DNA from: Catelliglobosispora koreensis DSM 44566
GTDB lineage: Bacteria; Actinomycetota; Actinomycetes; Mycobacteriales; Micromonosporaceae
DNA length: 64,000 nucleotides
NCBI RefSeq assembly: GCF_000379685.1
Contig: NZ_KB903252.1
Span: 206 to 64,205 of the forward strand
Direction: 5' to 3'
The notes beneath the pieces were generated by a model. It saw only the letters and a program-made list of their open reading frames with translations, made no database searches and was not told the DNA's origin. Made by a program: the position numbers and the translations under genes. Shown one piece after another: positions 38,780-51,025 of this stretch. Position 1 is the stretch's first letter. Each line of letters begins with the position of its first letter.

Positions 38780-41488
38780 GTGGCGAGCCTCGACACCTTC
38801 GGTGCCAAGAGCCAGCTCAGCGTCGGTGACGCGAGTTACGAGATCTTTGAGGTCTCCAAAGTGGAGGGGCACGACCGGCTCCCCTTCAGCTTGAAGATCC
38901 TGCTGGAAAACCTTTTGCGCACCGAGGACGGTGCGAACATTACGGCTGATCACATTCGCGCCCTCGGATCGTGGGATCCCAAGGCGGAGCCAAGCGTTGA
39001 GATTCAGTTCACGCCGGCCCGTGTGCTCATGCAGGACTTCACCGGTGTGCCTTGCGTCGTTGACCTGGCCACCATGCGTGAAGCCGTGCGGGACCTGGGC
39101 GGAGATCCGTCCAAAGTGAACCCGCTCGCGCCTGCTGAGCTCGTGATCGACCACTCCGTGATCGCGGACGTGTTCGGCCGCCCCGACGCCTTCGAGCGCA
39201 ACGTTGAGATCGAATACGGCCGCAACCAGGAGCGCTATCAGTTCCTGCGCTGGGGTCAGACCGCCTTCAACGAGTTCAAGGTCGTGCCGCCGGGCACCGG
39301 CATCGTGCACCAGGTCAACATCGAGCACCTCGCTCGCGTGATCATGCCGCGCGACGGCCAGGCCTACCCCGACACGGTCGTGGGAACGGACTCGCACACC
39401 ACCATGGTCAATGGCTTGGGCGTACTCGGCTGGGGTGTCGGTGGCATCGAGGCCGAAGCCGCGATGCTCGGACAGCCCGTCAGCATGCTGATCCCCAAAG
39501 TGGTCGGCTTCAAGCTGCACGGCGAACTGCCCCCCGGCGCGACCGCGACCGACCTCGTGCTGACCATCACCGAGCAGTTGCGTAAGCACGGTGTGGTGGG
39601 CAAGTTCGTCGAGTTCTACGGCACGGGTGTCCCCAGCGTCGCCCTGGCAAACCGGGCCACGATCGGCAACATGAGCCCTGAGTTCGGCTCGACTTGCGCG
39701 ATCTTCCCGATCGACCAGGAAACCATCACCTACCTCAAGCTCACGGGACGTAGTGAAGCGCAGCTAGCCCTGGTCGAGGCTTACGCCAAGCAGCAGGGCC
39801 TGTGGCATGACCCGTCGGTGGAAGCGTCCTATTCGGAATACCTCGAGCTGGACCTGTCCACGGTGGTGCCGAGCATCGCCGGGCCTAAGCGCCCACAAGA
39901 CCGGGTTTCGCTGACCGATGCCAAGACCGCCTTCCGCGCCTCGCTCCCTGACTACGTCAAGGACGATGGCGTGGACGAGTCTGGGCTGGAAAGCTTCCCC
40001 GCCTCGGACTCACCAACGCACACGGAGATGCGGGCGACCAACCCGACCCCGGTCACCGCGCCGGATGGGACGGTTTACCACCTCGATCACGGTGCCGTGG
40101 TGATCGCCTCGATCACGAGCTGCACCAACACTTCCAACCCGCAGGTCATGATCGGTGCGGCCCTGCTCGCCAAGAAGGCCGTCGAACGCGGCCTGACCGC
40201 GAAGCCGTGGGTCAAGACGACACTCGCCCCAGGGTCCAAAGTGGTCACCGATTACTACGCGCGGGCCGGGCTCACGCCGTACCTCGAAAAATTGGGTTTC
40301 CATCTTGTCGGTTATGGCTGCGTGACCTGCATCGGAAACTCGGGCCCGCTCAACGACGAGATCAGTACCGCGATCAACCAGAACGACCTCGCGGTGGTGT
40401 CTGTCCTGAGTGGAAACCGCAACTTCGAAGGCCGCATTCAGCCTGACGTCAAGATGAACTACCTGGCGTCGCCCCCGCTGGTCGTCGCCTACGCGATCGC
40501 CGGCACGATGGACCTCGACCTGACCCGTGAACCGCTGGGCGTTGACCCGAACGGCAACGCGGTCTACCTCGGCGACATCTGGCCGACGCCGCAGGAGATC
40601 CAGGAAACCATCAACGGTGCGGTGAACGCCGAAATGTTCGCCAAGGGCTACGTTGACGTGTTCGCGGGCGACGACCGGTGGAAGAACCTGTCGACGCCGA
40701 CCGGCAACACGTTCGCGTGGGATACCTCGTCGACATATGTGCGCAAGCCCCCGTACTTCGAGGGCATGGCCCCGCAACCGGCACCGGTCACCGACATTCA
40801 CGTCGCGCGGGTGCTGGCCAAGCTTGGTGACTCGGTCACGACCGACCACATCTCGCCGGCTGGCTCGATCAAGGCGGACTCCCCCGCTGGGCGTTACCTC
40901 ACCGATCACGGCATCGACCGCAAGGACTTCAACTCCTACGGTTCCCGCCGGGGTAACCACGAGGTGATGATCCGCGGCACCTTCGCCAACATCCGGCTGC
41001 GCAATCAGCTGGTGCCGGGGGTGGAAGGCGGCTTCACGCGCAACCACCTCACCGGGGCGCAAGAGTCCATTTACGACGCTTCACAGGCCTACCAAGCCGC
41101 AGGGGTACCACTGGTGATCCTCGCTGGCAAGGAATACGGCTCTGGTTCGTCACGGGACTGGGCCGCCAAGGGAACGGCATTGCTTGGTGTGAAGGCCGTC
41201 ATCGCCGAGTCCTACGAACGGATCCACCGCTCTAACCTGATCGGCATGGGCGTGCTGCCGCTGCAATACCCGGCTGGGCAGACCGCCGATTCGCTTGGCC
41301 TGACTGGCTCGGAGACGTTTGAGATCACCGGCGTCACCGCGCTCAACGATGGCCAGACGCCACGCACGGTGCGGGTCAAGGCCGACAACGTGGAGTTCGA
41401 CGCGGTTGTGCGCATCGACACTCCCGGTGAGGCTGACTACTACCGCCACGGCGGCATCCTGCACTACGTGCTGCGCAAGATGGTCTAA
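38780..41488 (+). CDS. acnA: Aconitate hydratase
   Basis: 902 residues, full length. The [4Fe-4S] cysteines lie in [10 protein letters not shown] and [35 protein letters not shown] and the C-terminal swivel domain [16 protein letters not shown] complete the fold. Interconverts citrate and isocitrate in the TCA cycle. GTG 38780 with AGGAG upstream. Followed by a terminator. Expected to be controlled by the AcnR protein encoded 3.7 kb downstream. Confidence 0.96.
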
Positions 41489-43738: not shown

Positions 43739-44992
43739 TCACATGAGATCAGCGTCCATTCCCACGATGTCTCTGCTGCGAGCAGCCTTGATCTGGTCCC
43801 GGGCCCATTGATCCGAGGGCCTGAAGCCGAATTGCTGATGCGCCCAGTCGCGAACTTGACCCGGCATGACCGGTTCGCCCATGGCGAGCGCCTCGGCGAT
43901 CATCCGCTGTGTTTCGTCGCGCCGGTTGTCCCACAGCGGGTGTTTTCCCATCGGCTCACGGCCGTTCTGGAGCGGGAAAATCGACTCGAGTTCGGCGCGC
44001 TGCACCGGATCGAGCACCGGCTGCGAGCCCGTGGGCGTGCGCAGGGCGTCGGCGTGGTTCTGATCCGGGTCGCGCAGCGCCGGAGGCTGAGCGTGCTGCG
44101 GTGATTGCTGCTGTGGCACGGAAGGGTAAGGCCGGTGCGCGACCTCGGGACGCCGGCCAGCGGTGGCCTTGGCGCGCCTGACTTCCGCTTTCGCGTGCAC
44201 CTCAACGAGTTTGGCCTGCTGCTCCTCGCGGACGCGCAGCGCACCGTCGAGACGGCGCTGGCGCTTGGCGTCACGGACCGCTTCGAGATGGTCGAGTGCG
44301 TTGCGAACGCTCGGCCTGATGCCCTCGTCTGGCGGGTGCACGATCCACGCACGCCGCGCGGCGAAGGTCGACATGGGTGCGTAAACCCAGCGCTGGCCAA
44401 AACGCGGGTAACGCGTCTTGAGCGCGACTTCGTCGTCGTAACCGGCCATGAACTGATCGAGCAGCTCGTGGAACATCGCCATGCCAGCCATGGAAAGGAA
44501 CGCCAAGTAGGCACCGGCCCAAATCGAATACTCGTCGCGGCCGTGCACGAAGTTGAGCACCGCCGACATCGTCGCGGCGGCGAACACGATCTTGTAGGCG
44601 CGGCCAGGGTGCCTGCCGCGCTTGACGGCCACGAAGGCCCAAGCTCCAAAAGAGACGCTGATGCCGTCGAGGCTCAGCGGAACAAGCATGTTAGTCCAGT
44701 GATTCCAGCCCATCACATCCTTGGCGAAGCCGGTGAGGCCGATGAAGGACACGCCCATAACGGCGAGCCACACCAGCAAGGACGGGATCAGGGCAGCAAG
44801 GAAAAGGGCGGTGTCTTTGACTTTCTCCTTGCGGCTGGCGAAAGCCTCGGGATGTGCCAAGCGGTGCCCACGGCGTTTGCCCGCCGCACGGGCCAGCGGC
44901 ACGCCGATCACCAGGGAGACGCTCAAGATGGCCACCACTAGCACCATCACCCAGGTCGGTACGTTGGTCGCTGTCAAATCGGACAGGTCCAC
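43739..44992 (-). CDS. DUF2637 membrane protein
   Basis: 417 residues. An N-terminal membrane helix (VMVLVVAILSVSLVIGV) is followed by the DUF2637 region with about four membrane segments at 60-180 (LFLAALIPSLLVWLAVMGVSF; NMLVPLSLDGISVSFGAWAF; EYSIWAGAYLAFLSMAGMAMF). A long charged, Gln/Pro-rich cytoplasmic tail follows. DUF2637 (SpdB-like) proteins occur on conjugative plasmids and in chromosomes of actinobacteria. Here it shows no plasmid context. Confidence 0.82.
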   Translation of the reverse strand: MDLSDLTATNVPTWVMVLVVAILSVSLVIGVPLARAAGKRRGHRLAHPEAFASRKEKVKDTALFLAALIPSLLVWLAVMGVSFIGLTGFAKDVMGWNHWTNMLVPLSLDGISVSFGAWAFVAVKRGRHPGRAYKIVFAAATMSAVLNFVHGRDEYSIWAGAYLAFLSMAGMAMFHELLDQFMAGYDDEVALKTRYPRFGQRWVYAPMSTFAARRAWIVHPPDEGIRPSVRNALDHLEAVRDAKRQRRLDGALRVREEQQAKLVEVHAKAEVRRAKATAGRRPEVAHRPYPSVPQQQSPQHAQPPALRDPDQNHADALRTPTGSQPVLDPVQRAELESIFPLQNGREPMGKHPLWDNRRDETQRMIAEALAMGEPVMPGQVRDWAHQQFGFRPSDQWARDQIKAARSRDIVGMDADLM

Positions 44993-45058
44993 TGTGCATC
45001 CTTCCTATACGTGACGCCGAGGGATTCTTCCATGCGCGGATGACATTGCGCGCGCGGC

Positions 45059-45074
45059 CACACGTACACGTGTG
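45059..45074. promoter_or_regulatory. Inverted repeat upstream of the DUF2637 gene
   Basis: CACACGT and ACGTGTG are separated by two bases, about 66 bp before the DUF2637 start and 137 bp before acnR. Possible operator; unassigned. Confidence 0.3.
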
Positions 45075-45161
45075 CCATCCCGTGTTTGTGCCGGTCACGG
45101 TGTGCATTCACTCGCTGGCCTAGGCCGGCCTCGTCGACCTGGCACACCGCGTCGGGTCCAT

Positions 45162-45175
45162 TCCGTACGTACGGA
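45162..45175. promoter_or_regulatory. AcnR-like operator upstream of acnR
   Basis: TCCGTACGTACGGA, a perfect 14-bp palindrome, 35 bp before the acnR start. It resembles the acnA-side site at 38732-38743, consistent with autoregulation. Confidence 0.55.
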
Positions 45176-45210
45176 TTGCACAGCCTCCCCTGACCTGGGA
45201 AGATCAGCAC

Positions 45211-45783
45211 GTGCCCAGGGTCAGCCAGGATCAGCTCGACGCCCGCCGCCAGGAGATCCTTGCCGCGGCCAGAGCCTGCTTCGCGCAATACGGCTACGAG
45301 GGCGCCACTGTCCGCCGTCTCGAAGAGGCCACCGGCCTGTCCCGTGGGGCGATCTTTCACCACTTCCGTGACAAAGAGTCACTGTTCCTCGCGGTCGCCG
45401 AGGACGACGCGGTCGAGATGACGGCCACGGTCGCCGAGCACGGCCTGGTGCAAGTGATGCGCGATCTGCTGGCTAGGGCGTCTGATCCGGACTCGGCGGG
45501 CTGGCTTGGTACCCAATTGGAAGTCGCCCGGAGATTGCGCACCGACCCAGATTTCGCCCAGCGATGGGCCGCACACGACGCGGCCATTTCTGGCGCGACC
45601 CAGCAACGGCTGCAGCGGCAGTCGAGCGCCGGAACCTTGCGCGATGATGTCCCGCTTGAAGTGCTGACCCATTTCCTTGAGCTGGCCTACGACGGCCTGG
45701 TCAAGCGGCTGGCCATGGGCGGCGACGCGGGCGAGCTCGGCCCGGTGCTCGACCTCATCGAGGAGACGGTCCGGCGCCGCTAG
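45211..45783 (+). CDS. acnR: TetR-family regulator (AcnR-like)
   Basis: 190 residues. N-terminal HTH (LAAARACFAQYGYEGATVRRLEEATGLSRGAIFHHFRDKESLF) and a C-terminal helical ligand domain. It matches AcnR, the aconitase repressor of corynebacteria and mycobacteria, in its opening PRVSQDQLDARRQEIL. GTG start at 45211. It is 3.7 kb from acnA, separated by four minus-strand genes, but both share a CGTACGG-type site. Confidence 0.88.
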   Translation: MPRVSQDQLDARRQEILAAARACFAQYGYEGATVRRLEEATGLSRGAIFHHFRDKESLFLAVAEDDAVEMTATVAEHGLVQVMRDLLARASDPDSAGWLGTQLEVARRLRTDPDFAQRWAAHDAAISGATQQRLQRQSSAGTLRDDVPLEVLTHFLELAYDGLVKRLAMGGDAGELGPVLDLIEETVRRR

Positions 45784-45807
45784 CGCGTCTCCGTTACCCT
45801 GCCGGGC

Positions 45808-45912
45808 ATGGGATCCGTCAAACCCTGGCACTTGATTTTGCTGATGTGCCTGTGCGTTTCCGTCACCGCGATGATCGCCGCCGTGATGGTCGTCGTCATG
45901 CGGAAGAAATGA
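45808..45912 (+). CDS. 34-residue membrane protein
   Basis: MGSVKPWHLILLMCLCV, then a hydrophobic stretch VTAMIAAVMVVVM and RKK. One membrane helix with a positive C-terminal tail. TACCCT (45795-45800) lies 7 nt before ATG, so the mRNA is likely leaderless. It runs 6 nt before the TIGR04222 gene and is probably the first gene of the DUF692 operon. Function unknown. Confidence 0.6.
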   Translation: MGSVKPWHLILLMCLCVSVTAMIAAVMVVVMRKK

Positions 45913-45918
45913 GGCGTC

Positions 45919-46815
45919 ATGCCAGACACCTGGGGCATTTCTGGGCCGCTATTCCTGGCGTTCTATATCACCACCGTCGTGGTGGTGCTGCTGTTCACGC
46001 TTAGCCACCGGCGGCGGATCTTCAAAGGTGACAAGCCTGGCGCCCAGACCGATCTGCCACCAGCCCAGCTCGGCTTCCTGCGCGACGGCCCGGTGCGGGC
46101 GATCCAGACCTCTCTGACCTGGCTGCGCCGAAACGAGGCGATCTCGATTGGCGAACTCGGCCGGTTCAGCCGCCGCGGTGGCGCCCCGGTAGGTGCGTCC
46201 GATGTGGACAGTGCGGTCCTGATGGCCGTGGGCTCAGACCGGACTGTCATACAGATCCAGCGCGATACCGGCGTGCGCGCGGCGCTGGAGCGTGTGCAAC
46301 GCGACCTCGAAAACCGCGGGCTGCTGCTGACCCAAGACGACCGTGAGTCAGCCCGCAAGGGCGTCTGGGTCTTGTTGCTGCTGCTCGGCTTGGGCACCTG
46401 GCGCTTCATCGCCGGCGTCAGCAACGACAAACCGGTGCTCTACCTTTTCCTGACGCTGACGGCACTGGCTGTCATCACCATCGTCATGCTGGCGCACCGG
46501 CCCCGGCTGACCCGCGCGGGACACGAGCTTATCGCGGCGAAAACCCGGGAATTTGAGCACTTGAAGCCCTCCTACCGGCCGTCGTGGAACACCTACGATC
46601 CAGCGATGACCGCTGTGGCCGTGGGGCTGTTTGGCACCGCGCTGCTGTGGGAGGCCGATCCCCTGCTGGCCGCGCACACCGCCGCGATCAACCAGCGTGC
46701 CGTGGCCGCGAGTTCGAGCACCACGGGATGCAGCGTGGGCGGAGATTCCGGCGGCAGCGGTGGCGGAGACGGTGGCGGCGGCGGAGGGTGCGGCGGCGGA
46801 GGCTGCGGCGGATGA
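45919..46815 (+). CDS. TIGR04222-type membrane protein with Gly/Cys-rich C-terminal tail
   Basis: 298 residues. Membrane helix near the start (LFLAFYITTVVVVLLFTL), then a soluble domain about 30-150. A membrane pair follows (GVWVLLLLLGLGTWRFIAGV; LYLFLTLTALAVITIVML), with another cytosolic region. The last 35 residues contain CSVGGDSGGSGGGDGGGGG and then CGGGGCGG, with three cysteines. This is the TIGR04222 architecture, which is often encoded beside DUF692 enzymes. The tail looks like a modification substrate. The stop overlaps the DUF692 start as ATGA. Confidence 0.82.
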   Translation: MPDTWGISGPLFLAFYITTVVVVLLFTLSHRRRIFKGDKPGAQTDLPPAQLGFLRDGPVRAIQTSLTWLRRNEAISIGELGRFSRRGGAPVGASDVDSAVLMAVGSDRTVIQIQRDTGVRAALERVQRDLENRGLLLTQDDRESARKGVWVLLLLLGLGTWRFIAGVSNDKPVLYLFLTLTALAVITIVMLAHRPRLTRAGHELIAAKTREFEHLKPSYRPSWNTYDPAMTAVAVGLFGTALLWEADPLLAAHTAAINQRAVAASSSTTGCSVGGDSGGSGGGDGGGGGGCGGGGCGG

Positions 46816-47627
46816 GCAGCCCGCTGGCAGGACGGGGCACCGGCATCGGCTGGCGGCCCGAAATCGCTGGCGTTGCCGCGGATCTGCCCGGCCTGCGGTT
46901 CACCGAGGTGATCGCGGAATCGCTGCATAGCGGTGTGCCGCCGGCTCTTTCGGCGCTTGCGGAGCGTGGGGTCGCGGTCGTGCCGCACGGCGTGAAACTG
47001 TCGCTGGGCGGCACCGATGAGCCCGATCCGGGACGCGTCAGCCACTTGGCCTGGTGTGCCGAGGTTCTCGGCGCTCCGCTGATCAGTGAGCACATCGCTT
47101 TCGTGCGAGCGGGCGGGCTAGAGGCGGGGCATCTGCTGCCTGTCCCCCGCACACGGGAGCAGGCTGATGTGATCGTCCGCAATGTCTTGCGTGTCAAGGA
47201 ATCCGTGTCCGTGCCGATCGCCCTTGAGCCGATCGCGGCCCTGTTCAGCTGGCCCGGCGATGAGCTGACCGAGGCAGAGTTCCTCACCGACATTCTCGAC
47301 CGTACGGGTGCTTGGCTGTTGCTCGACGTGGCCAACTGCTACGCCAACGCCCTCAACCGCGGCGAAGATCCACTGTCCAGTGTGGAGCGACTGCCGCTGG
47401 AGCGGATCGCCTACATGCACGTGGCGGGTGGGCGGAGCGCGGATGGCTATTACCACGACACGCATACCGATCCTGTCCCGCGCGAAGTGCTTGACCTGCT
47501 TAAGGCGATCCCTGGTGCACCGCCGGCCCTGCTGGAGCGCGACGGAGCCTACCCGGCCGCCGAGGTACTGAAGTCCGAATTGGACGCCATCTCACACGCC
47601 TGCGGCCACCCCGTGATCACCTCATGA
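46812..47627 (+). CDS. DUF692 / MNIO-family oxidative peptide-modifying enzyme
   Basis: 271 residues. TIM-barrel DUF692 pattern: GIGWRPEIAG, ISEHIAFVRA (His), ALEPIAALFSW (Glu), LLLDVANCYANALNRG (Asp/Asn), YMHVAGGR and a metal His in YHDTHTDPVP. MNIO enzymes (MbnB, TglH, BufB group) use two or three iron ions to oxidise cysteine residues of a precursor peptide to oxazolone, thio-oxazole or related groups. The coupled upstream gene gives a Cys-rich tail as probable substrate. Confidence 0.88.
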   Translation: MSSPLAGRGTGIGWRPEIAGVAADLPGLRFTEVIAESLHSGVPPALSALAERGVAVVPHGVKLSLGGTDEPDPGRVSHLAWCAEVLGAPLISEHIAFVRAGGLEAGHLLPVPRTREQADVIVRNVLRVKESVSVPIALEPIAALFSWPGDELTEAEFLTDILDRTGAWLLLDVANCYANALNRGEDPLSSVERLPLERIAYMHVAGGRSADGYYHDTHTDPVPREVLDLLKAIPGAPPALLERDGAYPAAEVLKSELDAISHACGHPVITS

Positions 47628-48064
47628 CGCTCGCGGAACGGCAGGCCGCTCTCGTACGAGCCCTTGTGACGGGCGCGGAGATCCCGCCCGGCTTCGCAGC
47701 ACCCGCGTTAACGGCCACCAGAAGCGCGCTGATGCGCAAACGCGGCGCGGAGGTGGCCCAGGTGTGGCCGCGTCTAGCGGAAAGCCACAACGGACGATGG
47801 CTGGAGGCATTCGGCGCGTGGGCCGGTCAACGGGCGCCACTGGGTTCGTTGCGCGACGGGTGGGACTTCGCCCGCGACCATCCGCCACAGACCGCGCAAG
47901 CACGCCTCGAACTCGCGTTACGCGAGGCCACGTTCGCCTACGACGGGACAACCGCACCACGGCGGCGAAAGCTGCCAGTGGTGCGGCTAGTCCGAGCGCA
48001 CCGCCGTCTCGCAGCCGTCATTCAAGCCGGCGGGCGCTGCAGGGTGATTGGCTCAGTGTTCTGA
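47624..48064 (+). CDS. DUF692 partner protein (HvfC/DUF2063-like)
   Basis: 146 residues. TLAERQAALVRALVTGAEIPPGF, ATRSALMRKRGAEVAQVWPRL, GSLRDGWDFARDHP, LELALREATFAYDG and APRRRKLP. It resembles the small partner proteins that bind precursor peptides and deliver them to DUF692 enzymes. Starts by an ATGA overlap and closes the four-gene unit. The end overlaps a convergent small gene by 12 nt. Confidence 0.75.
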   Translation: MTLAERQAALVRALVTGAEIPPGFAAPALTATRSALMRKRGAEVAQVWPRLAESHNGRWLEAFGAWAGQRAPLGSLRDGWDFARDHPPQTAQARLELALREATFAYDGTTAPRRRKLPVVRLVRAHRRLAAVIQAGGRCRVIGSVF

Positions 48065-48217
48065 CCCGGAAAACGGCTGCGGCGGCTCGGTCGTCTCTCT
48101 GGGATCGTGCTCGGCACCGCCCTTGCTGGTGTCCTCCCGGCGGCGGGCGCGGTCGCGCTCGGCTATCTCCTGCAGGTGCCTGGTTGCTTCCTCGGCTGCC
48201 TCGTCGCGTTTGGTCAT
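48053..48217 (-). CDS. Small charged protein
   Basis: 54 residues: TKRDEAAEEATRHLQEIAE, then RDRARRREDTSKGG, and an acidic, Pro-rich end. Hydrophilic and helical at the N-terminus. ATG 48217 lies 6 nt after TATGCC. Coding is plausible; no family recognised. Confidence 0.45.
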   Translation of the reverse strand: MTKRDEAAEEATRHLQEIAERDRARRREDTSKGGAEHDPRETTEPPQPFSGSEH

Positions 48218-48246
48218 GATTCGGGCATACCCACGCGCGGAACAGG

Positions 48247-50325
48247 TCAAACGGCTTGCGCCGTGAGGATGCACGCCTCGCTGTCGGCCGCCGCCATAAA
48301 CCGCTCCACGAGGGCGCCCGGGCCGCCGTCAAGCGCATGGCGCTGCATCTCCTTCAGCAACGGGCCCATCGGGTTGCGCTGCGAGCGATAGCCAGATGCG
48401 ATGCCATCGGTGAATAGGATCAGCAAATCACCTGGTACCCAATCGAGCTCTTCTGATTCGAAATCAGACTCGGTCAGGCCGAGCAGAACACCCCGGGGCG
48501 GGGTGAGCTGGTTGGCCTTGCCACTGCGCACGAGCACCGGGGCGAGGTGACCGGCCTGGGCCCACGTGAGCGTGCCGCGATCGGGCGAGAACCGCGCGAT
48601 AACCATGCTCGCCATCGGCGCCTTCGGATCGAGCAGCAGTTCCGTGTTGAGGGCGGCCAGGATCTCGGCTGGCTCGGCACCATCGCGGGCCATGACACGC
48701 GCTGGGTACATCAAGCGCGTCATCGTCGCCGCAGCCATGAGCCCGCTGCCGATGATGTCGCCGACGCACATCAGCACACTGCCGTCGGGATCGGCGATCG
48801 CGTCGAGGAAATCCGCTTGCACGCGTTCATGTTCCGGCGGCACCCAGTGCACCCCGCGCACATGCAAGCCGGGCACCTCCAAGTCCAAAGTGGACGCTGG
48901 GTACCACATCTCGCGCATCTGGCGGGTCAGCTCACGCTCGGTCGCGACCCGCAAGCGCTGCCCGGCAAGCGCCGCTTCGGTGCGCCGCAACGTTTCCTCG
49001 GCGACCTTCTCCTCGGTGATGTCGGTGGCGACCGCCTGGATGAGGTGAACCTCGCCCGAATCAATGGCTTTCGACTCGGCGAGCATGCGCAGCCAGTGCA
49101 GCGTGCCGTCGGCGTGCGTTAGCTGAAGCACCACATCGGCTGTCCCCGCGACGGAACGCAATTGCCGCAACTCTTCGCTGTCAACGGGCAGGCGATCCCA
49201 CGCCGACGGGCCTTCGCCCAGATCACGGCCAAACAAGCGGTAGAACCCGGGAGACCAGCTGATTTCACCCGACGCCAGGTCCCACTCGGCGAAGCCAAGG
49301 CTGCCAAGGACTTCCATGCGCGCGACGTATTCGTTTTGCCGTTGCGCCGCATCGAGATGCTGCTGCGACACGAGCAGGTGATCGGCGACCCGGAAAGCCC
49401 TGCGCCGCAACAGCAGCCGCCGCGGGCGGCCCCGGAATAGCACCGTCTCATAGGAAGCGGGCCGCTCGAAGGCGACACCCTTCTCGTATGCCTCGACGTA
49501 TCCGTCGAACACCCCGTTGCTGGCCAGATGTGGCTCCAGATCGAGCAGTCGCGCACCGGTCAAGTCGGCTAGCGACCGTCCAAACAGGGTGGTCACTTCC
49601 TTCGTGGCGTAGTCGACCGTGAAATCCGTGATCTGGCCATTGTCATCGCGTACCGGCGAAAGCAGTTTGCCTTGCCCATAAACCGTGCCGAGGACCTCTC
49701 GCATCCACTGCAACTGATCCCAGGCGATCGCTGGCGGACACCACATCCGGCTGGCAATGCCGCCCACCGCACCGGCGAGCGCGCTCACGGCGGCCTGCTC
49801 ATCGTCGGCCAAGGGTCCCGAAAACGATAGCTGCAGCAGGATCCGGCCGTTAGCGGTCTCCAGTGGATAGACCAACGGGTCAGGACCGGGGTTACCCGCG
49901 GACGCGACGAGGCGCTGCTCCGTGTCATAGACGGCCATGACGGCCACGCCATCGGCGCCCGCTTCAACCAGTCCGTCCTGCCACAGCGTGGCGGCCAGTT
50001 CGGGAAGGGAGACGGTCGATGCCGCGCTGCTGACGGCACGCTGCAGGTGCCGGGCGAAACCAGGTGGCGTGCCGCGTCCGCGACGGGGCGGCGCCGGCAT
50101 TTTGAGCCCGGCGACGATGTCGGCGGCGAGATCGGCGACCGCCACGTTGCGTTTCTGCGACTCCAGCGACATCCGCTTGAACGCCTGCTCCGGGTCGATC
50201 TCGTGCTCGCGTGCCAGGATGCCTTTGGCTTGTTCGATGAGCCCTCTGCTGCGCAGCGCGCGCCGCAGGCCCGCTACTTCCTCTTCCAGCTTGCGAACCC
50301 GGGCGACCCAATCAGCATTCGACAT
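48247..50325 (-). CDS. ANTAR / PAS / PP2C (SpoIIE) phosphatase
   Basis: 692 residues. An N-terminal coiled coil and ANTAR-like RNA-binding domain (LRSRGLIEQAKGILAREHEIDPEQAF, about 5-75) precede a GAF-like region. PAS modules lie at about 215-330 and 340-450. The SpoIIE-type Ser phosphatase has MCVGDIIGSGLM, WAQAGHLAPVL and ILFTDGIASG with the metal Asp residues. ANTAR is usually C-terminal, so the N-terminal position is unusual. Likely regulates an anti-sigma pathway. ATG 50325 overlaps the upstream gene by 14 nt. Confidence 0.85.
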   Translation of the reverse strand: MSNADWVARVRKLEEEVAGLRRALRSRGLIEQAKGILAREHEIDPEQAFKRMSLESQKRNVAVADLAADIVAGLKMPAPPRRGRGTPPGFARHLQRAVSSAASTVSLPELAATLWQDGLVEAGADGVAVMAVYDTEQRLVASAGNPGPDPLVYPLETANGRILLQLSFSGPLADDEQAAVSALAGAVGGIASRMWCPPAIAWDQLQWMREVLGTVYGQGKLLSPVRDDNGQITDFTVDYATKEVTTLFGRSLADLTGARLLDLEPHLASNGVFDGYVEAYEKGVAFERPASYETVLFRGRPRRLLLRRRAFRVADHLLVSQQHLDAAQRQNEYVARMEVLGSLGFAEWDLASGEISWSPGFYRLFGRDLGEGPSAWDRLPVDSEELRQLRSVAGTADVVLQLTHADGTLHWLRMLAESKAIDSGEVHLIQAVATDITEEKVAEETLRRTEAALAGQRLRVATERELTRQMREMWYPASTLDLEVPGLHVRGVHWVPPEHERVQADFLDAIADPDGSVLMCVGDIIGSGLMAAATMTRLMYPARVMARDGAEPAEILAALNTELLLDPKAPMASMVIARFSPDRGTLTWAQAGHLAPVLVRSGKANQLTPPRGVLLGLTESDFESEELDWVPGDLLILFTDGIASGYRSQRNPMGPLLKEMQRHALDGGPGALVERFMAAADSEACILTAQAV

Positions 50326-51025
50326 TGAACACACTGTATGCCTGTTTGATGACCGGGTGAGCGACATTGCGGACCCTTACGCCGCCAGGCGTCATGCCGC
50401 GTTCCGTGCCCGCGTGAGCGTGCCCGTGAATGGCCAGCGTGGCGGGGGCCGCGTCGATCGCCTCACCGAGCAGGTAGGAGCCGAGGAACGGGTAGATCTC
50501 CGGTGGTTCACCCGCGAGAGTGTCCGGCACGGGTGCGTAATGCGTGAGCGCTATGCGGATGTCCGTGTCGAGCCCGGTCAGCGCCTCGCAGAGGGCGTCG
50601 GCGCTCGCTTCGGTCGTGCGCACGAAGGCTTTCATCTCACTCTCGCCGAAAGCACTCGCACACCGGCCCGCGAAACCGCCGCCAAATCCCTTGACGCCAG
50701 CTATCCCGGCCCGCCCGCCCGGGGTATCCACCACGATCGACGCTCCCTCTAGTACCGAAATCTCGCCTTCGGTCAAAGTCTGCACTACGGCATCGGCCTC
50801 GTCGCTGTGGTGGTCGTGGTTGCCCAGCACAGCGATGACGGGAACGCCGATCCCGCTAAATTCCTTCACCACACACCGGGCTTCGGCCACGGTGCCGTGC
50901 CGGGTCAGGTCGCCCGCGAGCAACAGGAAATCGGCCCGGCCAGGTAGCTCCTGCAGCGCAGGGCGGTAACGGCCTAGCAGGTCGGCGTCCATGTGAACAT
51001 CCCCAACCGCGGCTACCCGGATCAT
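50312..51025 (-). CDS. Metallophosphoesterase
   Basis: 237 residues. Calcineurin-like metal motifs: AAVGDVHMD (DxH), LLAGDLTRHG (GDxxxxG), AVLGNHDHHSDE (GNHD), ALTHYAP (H) and AIHGHAHAG (GHxH). Phosphoesterase or nuclease of unknown substrate. It is coupled to the phosphatase gene downstream and to the BON gene upstream, which overlaps it by 4 nt. Confidence 0.92.
   Translation of the reverse strand: MIRVAAVGDVHMDADLLGRYRPALQELPGRADFLLLAGDLTRHGTVAEARCVVKEFSGIGVPVIAVLGNHDHHSDEADAVVQTLTEGEISVLEGASIVVDTPGGRAGIAGVKGFGGGFAGRCASAFGESEMKAFVRTTEASADALCEALTGLDTDIRIALTHYAPVPDTLAGEPPEIYPFLGSYLLGEAIDAAPATLAIHGHAHAGTERGMTPGGVRVRNVAHPVIKQAYSVFNVEC

Follow-up and report, generated by a model that had tools for sequence, protein, structure and literature searches.

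The substrates of TglHI and MbnBC, two systems built around an enzyme of the MNIO (DUF692) family, are short peptides. For a further such system, FonBC, PMC13097082 reports that 5-thiooxazoles are made, with absorbance near 305 nm as their mark, that a small residue after the cysteine is preferred and proline is rejected, and that the product binds copper. Proteins of the TIGR04222 family appear in this literature as well: a TIGR04222 peptide is mentioned in a Pseudonocardia cluster (PMC5183585), and Antoine et al. 2025 (PMC12452194) proposed, without experiment, that the C-terminal tail of TIGR04222 proteins is an MNIO substrate.

We analyzed a TIGR04222-MNIO locus of Catelliglobosispora koreensis DSM 44566 (Micromonosporaceae), which lies in a window of 64,000 nucleotides (the whole stretch examined; contig NZ_KB903252.1, positions 206 to 64,205, forward strand). 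In profile searches, this genome contains one MNIO match and one TIGR04222 match. A sequence-only reading of the window had proposed that the enzyme modifies the cysteines of the TIGR04222 tail, and had added that no experimental description of such a modification was known. Within the MNIO literature searched, we indeed found no experiment on a TIGR04222 protein; the idea itself, however, had already been printed by Antoine et al. The substrate idea is known, and what is added here are the comparative rules and the genomic address. The best overall explanation, which we consider reasonably probable, is that a module of three genes, encoding the TIGR04222 protein, the MNIO and a small partner protein, tailors the TIGR04222 tail.

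Tail cysteines and the neighboring MNIO gene

The TIGR04222 protein of the window scores 151.5 bits against the NCBIfam profile of that name (cut-off 43), has the low-complexity C-terminus and, as the sequence-only reading had described, carries exactly three cysteines in a Gly-rich tail (residues 271, 291 and 296 of 298; codons 46729-46731, 46789-46791 and 46804-46806). For comparison, we used a family sample of 250 genomes of the Micromonosporaceae and a phylum sample of 159 genomes, with 92 MNIO-centered stretches, 8 stretches around a lone TIGR04222 gene, the best 80 of 212 named loci and smaller sets; counts are given on distinct sequences because the two large sets of loci overlap. The adjacent set comprises 128 distinct TIGR04222 proteins with an MNIO gene within 450 nucleotides downstream (the window protein, 81 more, 44 from named loci and 2 others). 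At least two tail cysteines are present in 125 of these proteins, one in 3 and zero in none (mean, 4.0), and 117 end exactly in Cys-Gly-Gly (CGG). In contrast, among the 16 TIGR04222 proteins with no MNIO in the locus, 13 have no tail cysteine, one has a single cysteine and two have at least two, and none ends in CGG. The association is significant (Fisher p 8e-15, uncorrected for the kinship of these related sequences), although the small number of unlinked controls, 7 of which belong to one clade, counts against placing too much weight on it. Both Cys-rich unlinked copies (L089 and L182) come from genomes with an MNIO elsewhere (G010 and G057). The TIGR04222 domain is homologous to the membrane-associated domain of DUF2207 proteins (hhalign probability 97.5 against 14 sequences, of which all 9 tested are DUF2207 by Pfam); these 14 homologs also have Gly-rich ends, but none of the 14 has a cysteine among its final 45 residues, and no MNIO match was found in their genomes.

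The composition of the tails points in the same direction. Among the residues that are one base away from the codon GGC, Cys makes up 10.3% of the tail, compared with 0.2% for Arg, 0.6% for Val, 2.6% for Ala, 3.6% for Asp and 23% for Ser; because Cys is so far above Arg and Val, selection on the tail cysteines appears likely. Altogether, 503 of the 508 tail cysteines are followed by Gly (428) or Ser (75), only 2 have a proline within two residues, and the commonest spacing between cysteines is 6 (191 of 380). We considered whether the Gly-Gly end merely results from the ATGA overlap with the MNIO gene (GGA-TGA); this may be so in part, but 20 of the 24 junctions without the overlap constraint retain the CGG end.

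The three genes are also linked to a degree far beyond chance, given that TIGR04222, MNIO and partner co-occur in 127 of the 153 distinct MNIO loci. The system is abundant in the host family, with MNIO in 174 of 250 genomes and a TIGR04222 match at E 0.001 in 190 (175 over the cut-off). In the phylum sample, TIGR04222 is over the cut-off in 6 of 159 genomes, 5 of which also have an MNIO; the TIGR04222 matches of the remaining genome (G277) lie at a contig end. Counting also AcnR, the aconitase repressor homolog encoded upstream, the 153 loci divide into those with TIGR04222, partner and AcnR (115), TIGR04222 and partner but no AcnR detected (12), TIGR04222 and AcnR (2, in stretches that end just past MNIO), partner and AcnR without TIGR04222 (2), partner only (10, namely 7 stretches that begin at MNIO and 3 of the fusion types described below) and none of these at the thresholds used (12, among them L202 and L203, which have a TIGR04222 protein over the curated cut-off). 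Both junctions of the core in the window are ATGA overlaps, and an NTGA overlap is found at 103 of 127 TIGR04222 stops and 120 of 127 MNIO stops.

In six loci (L017, L018, L021, L022, L024 and L025), a single MNIO gene is preceded by two or three TIGR04222 genes in tandem, and most of these loci combine a copy ending in CGG with one ending in GGGGGS or GGGGGGQ, as though the copies had drifted apart. Tandem copies were tallied separately (of 13, 11 have at least two cysteines and 8 end in CGG). The tail counts omit L157 (a frame of 763 amino acids) and four copies truncated at contig ends (one in L183, two in L211 and one in L234), as well as matches below 50 bits of our own profile, namely L207, L202/L203, L209 and L189. 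Of these low-scoring copies, L207 (8 tail cysteines) and L202 and L203 (6 each) stand beside an MNIO; L209, with its MNIO upstream, has no tail cysteine, nor does L189. L186 is missed by our TIGR04222 profile and has no cysteine in the last 60 residues.

The adjacent tails with one cysteine are those of the last tandem copy in L017, of a contig-edge fragment (L212) and of Virgisporangium aurantiacum (L028, the same as L124). Several observations weigh against the tail being the substrate. In V. aurantiacum, MNIO and partner are kept beside a one-Cys, Gly-poor tail that lacks a Gly run, and no lost Cys tail was found in other reading frames. G377 encodes, 1.6 kb past the MNIO match of its fusion enzyme, a TIGR04222 protein with a Cys-free tail, and G272, which also encodes a fusion enzyme, has no match to TIGR04222. 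L058 and L063 lack a TIGR04222 gene beside MNIO, the same genomes having a Cys-tailed one at a second MNIO. Several MNIO-adjacent tandem copies end in GGGGGS or GGGGGGQ, and the literature searched reports no modification of any TIGR04222 protein. Relatives that keep the enzyme beside a tail without cysteines had been named in the sequence-only reading as evidence against its proposal; these exist (a single cysteine in L028/L124, none in G377) and are rare, with fewer than two cysteines in 3 of 128 tails. Enzymes retained beside a degenerate or missing tail in a few genomes, and the Gly-rich ends of the homologous DUF2207 proteins, fit an alternative in which the tail stays unmodified, with its cysteines serving as thiols, in disulfides or in direct metal binding, and in which the MNIO, though co-regulated, has some other product as its target. 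We regard this alternative as improbable, given that the tail cysteines track the MNIO and are mostly missing without it, and that 103 of 127 junctions overlap (no systematic search for other Cys-bearing small open reading frames (ORFs) was made across all loci). That the TIGR04222 tail is the MNIO substrate appears, from these sequence comparisons, very likely: the association of cysteines with MNIO and the CGG end favor it, as do the fold of the partner, the natural fusions and the predicted topology discussed below, so that this part of the sequence-only reading, together with its membrane-bound product, is well supported, with few counter-examples.

The MNIO enzyme and its partner protein

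The enzyme matches PF05114 (MbnB_TglH_ChrH) with 236.5 bits (cut-off 25) over residues 10-262 of 271, and H59, H94, E139, D172, N175, H203, D216, H218 and E242 are invariant in 22 sequences and align with identical residues in TglH. We take these His, Glu, Asp and Asn positions to be iron ligands; the sequence-only reading had likewise identified an MNIO with His/Glu/Asp metal ligands, and the profile match and the invariance of the candidate positions bear it out. A profile of the relatives matches the crystal structures 3bww and TglH 8hci_D. By E-value, the best match among the named loci is from Rhizocola hellebori (Micromonosporaceae; 69% identity). The enzyme falls below the NCBIfam equivalog cut-offs of BufB (156.2 of 310 bits), HvfB (135.6 of 360), ApyH (97 of 400), ChrH (57 of 600) and MbnB (21 of 325); BufB and HvfB are the top-scoring curated MNIO models.

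The partner protein has no significant Pfam or NCBIfam match but belongs to a conserved family (42 aligned sequences, mean column identity 50%), and its AlphaFold model is of high confidence (pLDDT 94.3). The gene lies directly 3' of MNIO and lacks the DUF2063 signature, as described for PME-type 2 partners (PMC12452194). This signature of PME-type 1 partners was not found in the window protein, and of 25 family members one gave a match, at E 0.052; the profile of the partner family has no match among PDB sequences up to E 10. In a comparison with 431 chains using VIA-align, the top match was 8hi7 chain A of TglHI (Z 7.3, 137 residues, 4.0 A), followed by NGO1945 (3dee; Z 5.5, 108 residues, 4.3 A) and 7dz9_C (Z 4.7), with the next, unrelated row at Z 2.9. 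All three top matches are MNIO-partner complexes or a partner protein; we take 8hi7 chain A to be TglI and 7dz9_C to be MbnC. Two results pull the other way, namely that even the best Z of 7.3 is under the safe level of the tool itself (Z 8) and that Foldseek yields no significant match for the model (best E 0.6, to chain C of the MbnABC complex). Judging from the predicted model, the partner resembles NGO1945 (3dee) and TglI in fold and can be described as PME-type 2-like.

MNIO and partner domains are joined in one open frame in G356, G377 and G272. Single-chain fusions of MNIO with a partner-like domain are clear in L207, L239 and L240 and weak in L203 and L202. In L203, the second MNIO of G112, the C-terminal partner match is weak (15.3 bits, 42 residues); in L202 (G057), the MNIO has a C-terminal extension closely similar to that of L203, with no partner match reported. 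The MNIOs of L202 and L203 each adjoin a TIGR04222 protein ending in GGCGGCGCGG.

Because BufB and HvfB score highest and the tail motifs suit the preferences of FonBC, thiooxazoles and an outward copper ligand are predicted. By this analogy, the case for a thiooxazole as the tail product is evenly balanced. An alternative is that the tail is the substrate of some other chemistry, such as formation of an oxazolone/thioamide as in methanobactin, carbon excision as by TglHI, or a new product on Cys-Gly-Gly. The enzyme being below every matched equivalog cut-off, the partner lacking the DUF2063 signature and resembling TglI and MbnC as well as NGO1945, and the exact CGG C-terminus being unlike the EGKCG repeats all speak for such a different product; nevertheless, the top two curated models represent thiooxazole groups and the tail motifs suit the reported preferences of FonBC, and we consider a different chemistry rather unlikely.

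Topology and predicted mechanism

The AlphaFold model of the TIGR04222 protein (pLDDT 87.4, with residues 269-298 below 50) contains helices at residues 9-36, 139-168, 174-192 and 228-246 (broken at 239), which we read as membrane helices. In 38 sequences, residues 193-227 contain on average 6.4 Lys+Arg and 1.7 acidic residues, and few Lys+Arg are found at the N-terminus (0.1) or in the tail (1.3); given this distribution, the positive-inside rule on balance places the tail outside. The topology is soft, and the tail could remain inside the cell: the loop 37-138 is charge-balanced (on average 10.6 basic and 10.0 acidic residues), and the fourth transmembrane helix is the weakest and only moderately hydrophobic (mean Kyte-Doolittle hydropathy 1.41). 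No export signal was seen by eye in the MNIO or the partner; therefore, modification would have to precede export of the tail.

Two further features of the TIGR04222 protein were considered and dropped. Similarity of the domain to GOLPH3 (GPP34) is not claimed: it ranks first in Foldseek with E 0.12, its Z is 7.6 with unrelated bundles scoring higher (9.2), and 1 of 38 members matches at E 0.0021, with an hhalign probability of 20. The N-terminal DTWGIxGPxFL was rejected as an MNIO recognition element: Cys-less copies without MNIO begin with a similar WGVSGPxFL, so the motif marks the protein family and not the modification.

The preferred reading of the module as tailoring the tail can be laid out as follows. 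We infer that the MNIO, guided by the PME-type 2-like partner, would oxidize the tail cysteines while they are still cytosolic, and that the tail would cross the membrane only afterwards, following the fourth transmembrane helix; by analogy with captophorins and bufferins, 5-thiooxazoles would be the most likely candidate product. The finished protein would then display outside the cell a flexible, membrane-tethered metal-binding tail, most plausibly for copper. A copper-related role is suggested by analogy and we hold it tentatively; nothing in the locus points to copper, and the acnR neighbor points, if anywhere, to iron or citrate, both of which speak against it. More speculatively still, an integral membrane protein bearing an outward, enzyme-installed array of thiooxazoles that ends in Cys-Gly-Gly might be a permanently tethered metal ligand, in place of a secreted peptide, that, in the Micromonosporaceae, is expressed from the acnR locus and perhaps answers to iron or citrate status together with aconitase. 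If the proposed modification is real, MNIO enzymes act on full-size membrane proteins and not on peptides alone, and an abundant actinobacterial system gains a function. The comparative rules (cysteines present with MNIO, the CGG end, small residues around the cysteines, natural fusions) can guide the choice of constructs and mutants, and the acnR position offers the first regulatory hypothesis.

Genomic context and comparison with described systems

Table 1. Features of the window discussed in the text
Feature	Positions	Strand	Basis
Proposed MNIO substrate, a TIGR04222 membrane protein of 298 aa	45919..46815	+	NCBIfam TIGR04222 profile
TIGR04222 C-terminal tail, residues 247-298, Gly/Ser-rich, ending in Cys-Gly-Gly	46657..46812	+	sequence
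MNIO (DUF692) enzyme, 271 aa	46812..47627	+	PF05114 profile
PME-type 2-like partner protein of 146 aa, helical with three strands at the C-terminus	47624..48064	+	predicted model
AcnR (aconitase repressor) homolog, TetR gene immediately 5' of the module	45211..45783	+	PDB sequence match
34-aa membrane peptide, KPWH small-ORF family, outside the conserved module	45808..45912	+	sequence
Aconitase, context for AcnR	38780..41488	+	PF00330, 550.7 bits (cut-off 28.7)

The product of the upstream TetR gene is similar to AcnR over its full length (200 bits to 4ac6/4af5, residues 7-190 of 190; the next-best PDB sequence scores 45 bits), and an aconitase gene lies 3.7 kb 5' of acnR. AcnR is encoded upstream of the module in 119 of the 153 distinct MNIO loci, with its stop within 200 nucleotides of the start of the TIGR04222 domain in 99 of 117 measured cases. 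The linkage of acnR with the MNIO module was not found in the literature searched and is apparently added here: no mention of AcnR, aconitase, TetR or CGG was found in the text of Antoine et al. 2025 (PMC12452194), and no literature on MNIO together with aconitase was found beyond the word in a reference list. As functional proof, the linkage is weakened by the 12 loci that hold the three core genes without a detected AcnR; about 5 kb upstream are covered in five of these (L151, L156, L174, L177 and L181, from Actinomadura and actinobacterial metagenome-assembled genomes), about 3 kb in three and less than 1.7 kb in four. The Corynebacterium AcnR operator motif, which we take to be CAGNACNNNCGTACTG, has 5 matches with up to two mismatches in the window, compared with 4.4 expected. 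No match precedes acnR or the module, and one is located 37-52 bases 5' of the aconitase start. The matches lend no support to operator control of the module by AcnR. Shared regulation by AcnR is a hypothesis only, because no operator is recognized at the module and because some loci have the module but no detected AcnR; inheritance alone may account for the acnR position. No sigma-70-type promoter was detected in a scan of 44950-48300. The 3' neighbor, on the minus strand (48247-50367), encodes ANTAR and SpoIIE phosphatase domains.

The sequence-only reading had described four coupled genes. All four ORFs are present where it placed them, and the coupling is upheld for TIGR04222, MNIO and partner by the ATGA overlaps and the 127 of 153 loci; it fails for the 34-residue peptide, which belongs to a scattered family. 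This peptide is a genuine small ORF with two cysteines in its membrane segment, 6 nucleotides 5' of the TIGR04222 start. Relatives with the KPWH pattern were found in 6 of 92 other MNIO-centered stretches, all from Catellatospora, in addition to a pattern-less relative in the same genus (L010, G016); over loci L001-L181, the pattern occurs 14 times (the window copy, 6 stretches and 7 Catellatospora loci, in overlapping sets). Hydrophobic small ORFs within 500 nucleotides upstream accompany 3 of 102 TIGR04222 hits (in the window, in L001, which duplicates it, and in L070, where the ORF starts with GTG and is unrelated), and gene calls around 12 other peptide copies showed no common neighbor by eye. 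A search at E 1 matched 46 of 61 genomes, a tally that overstates the family because many matches cover residues 1-18 only, as does the TatA of the same genome. As a fourth component of the module, the peptide was rejected: among the loci examined, it occurs at this position only in the window and Catellatospora, and the copies elsewhere showed no adjoining MNIO. The same distribution, with copies without MNIO seen alongside, makes it hardly credible that the peptide is the enzyme's substrate, an alternative suggested by its two membrane-segment cysteines, its position and the CC pair in many relatives.

The KPWH/RPWH small-ORF family is scattered over the Micromonosporaceae (for example, L105, L109, L115, L117, L130, L132, L147 and L245-L258); its members mostly have 33-38 residues, with KPWH or RPWH close to the N-terminus, a single membrane helix that often contains CC, and an end that is usually basic. 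Their start is similar to the N-terminus of a TatA encoded in the same genome (L244, PF02416 E 3.5e-17), but the rest of TatA is missing. In L019, on the minus strand upstream of its MNIO, an MNIO of a different class follows a 65-residue Cys-rich peptide and precedes a 276-residue protein; this is probably a separate cluster for peptide modification.

Compared with the systems described so far, the module shares with TglHI and MbnBC an MNIO and a partner of related fold without the DUF2063 signature; it differs from MbnB in that the enzyme is far under the MbnB equivalog cut-off. Captophorins and bufferins (FonA, HvfA and Buf1; PMC13097082) are similar in combining an MNIO with a partner, in their repeated cysteines, often before Gly, and in a product exported from the cytosol. 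Their precursors, however, are for the most part peptides that carry a Sec signal peptide and go with DUF2063 type 1 partners, whereas here a four-helix membrane protein is combined with a type 2-like partner; the window protein, with 298 residues and several long helices, lacks EGKCG, and the commonest Cys spacing is 6 here and 5 in the FonA repeat. The closest resemblance is to the clusters of Antoine et al. (PMC12452194), which have TIGR04222, a Cys/Gly/Ser tail predicted to face outward, an adjacent MNIO and, in some, a PME-type 2 partner. In that study, more than a quarter of the TIGR04222 proteins are reported to have no C-proximal cysteine, compared with 3 of 128 MNIO-adjacent proteins with fewer than two cysteines here, and the models include a 300-residue Micromonospora protein, from the same family as the host of the present locus.

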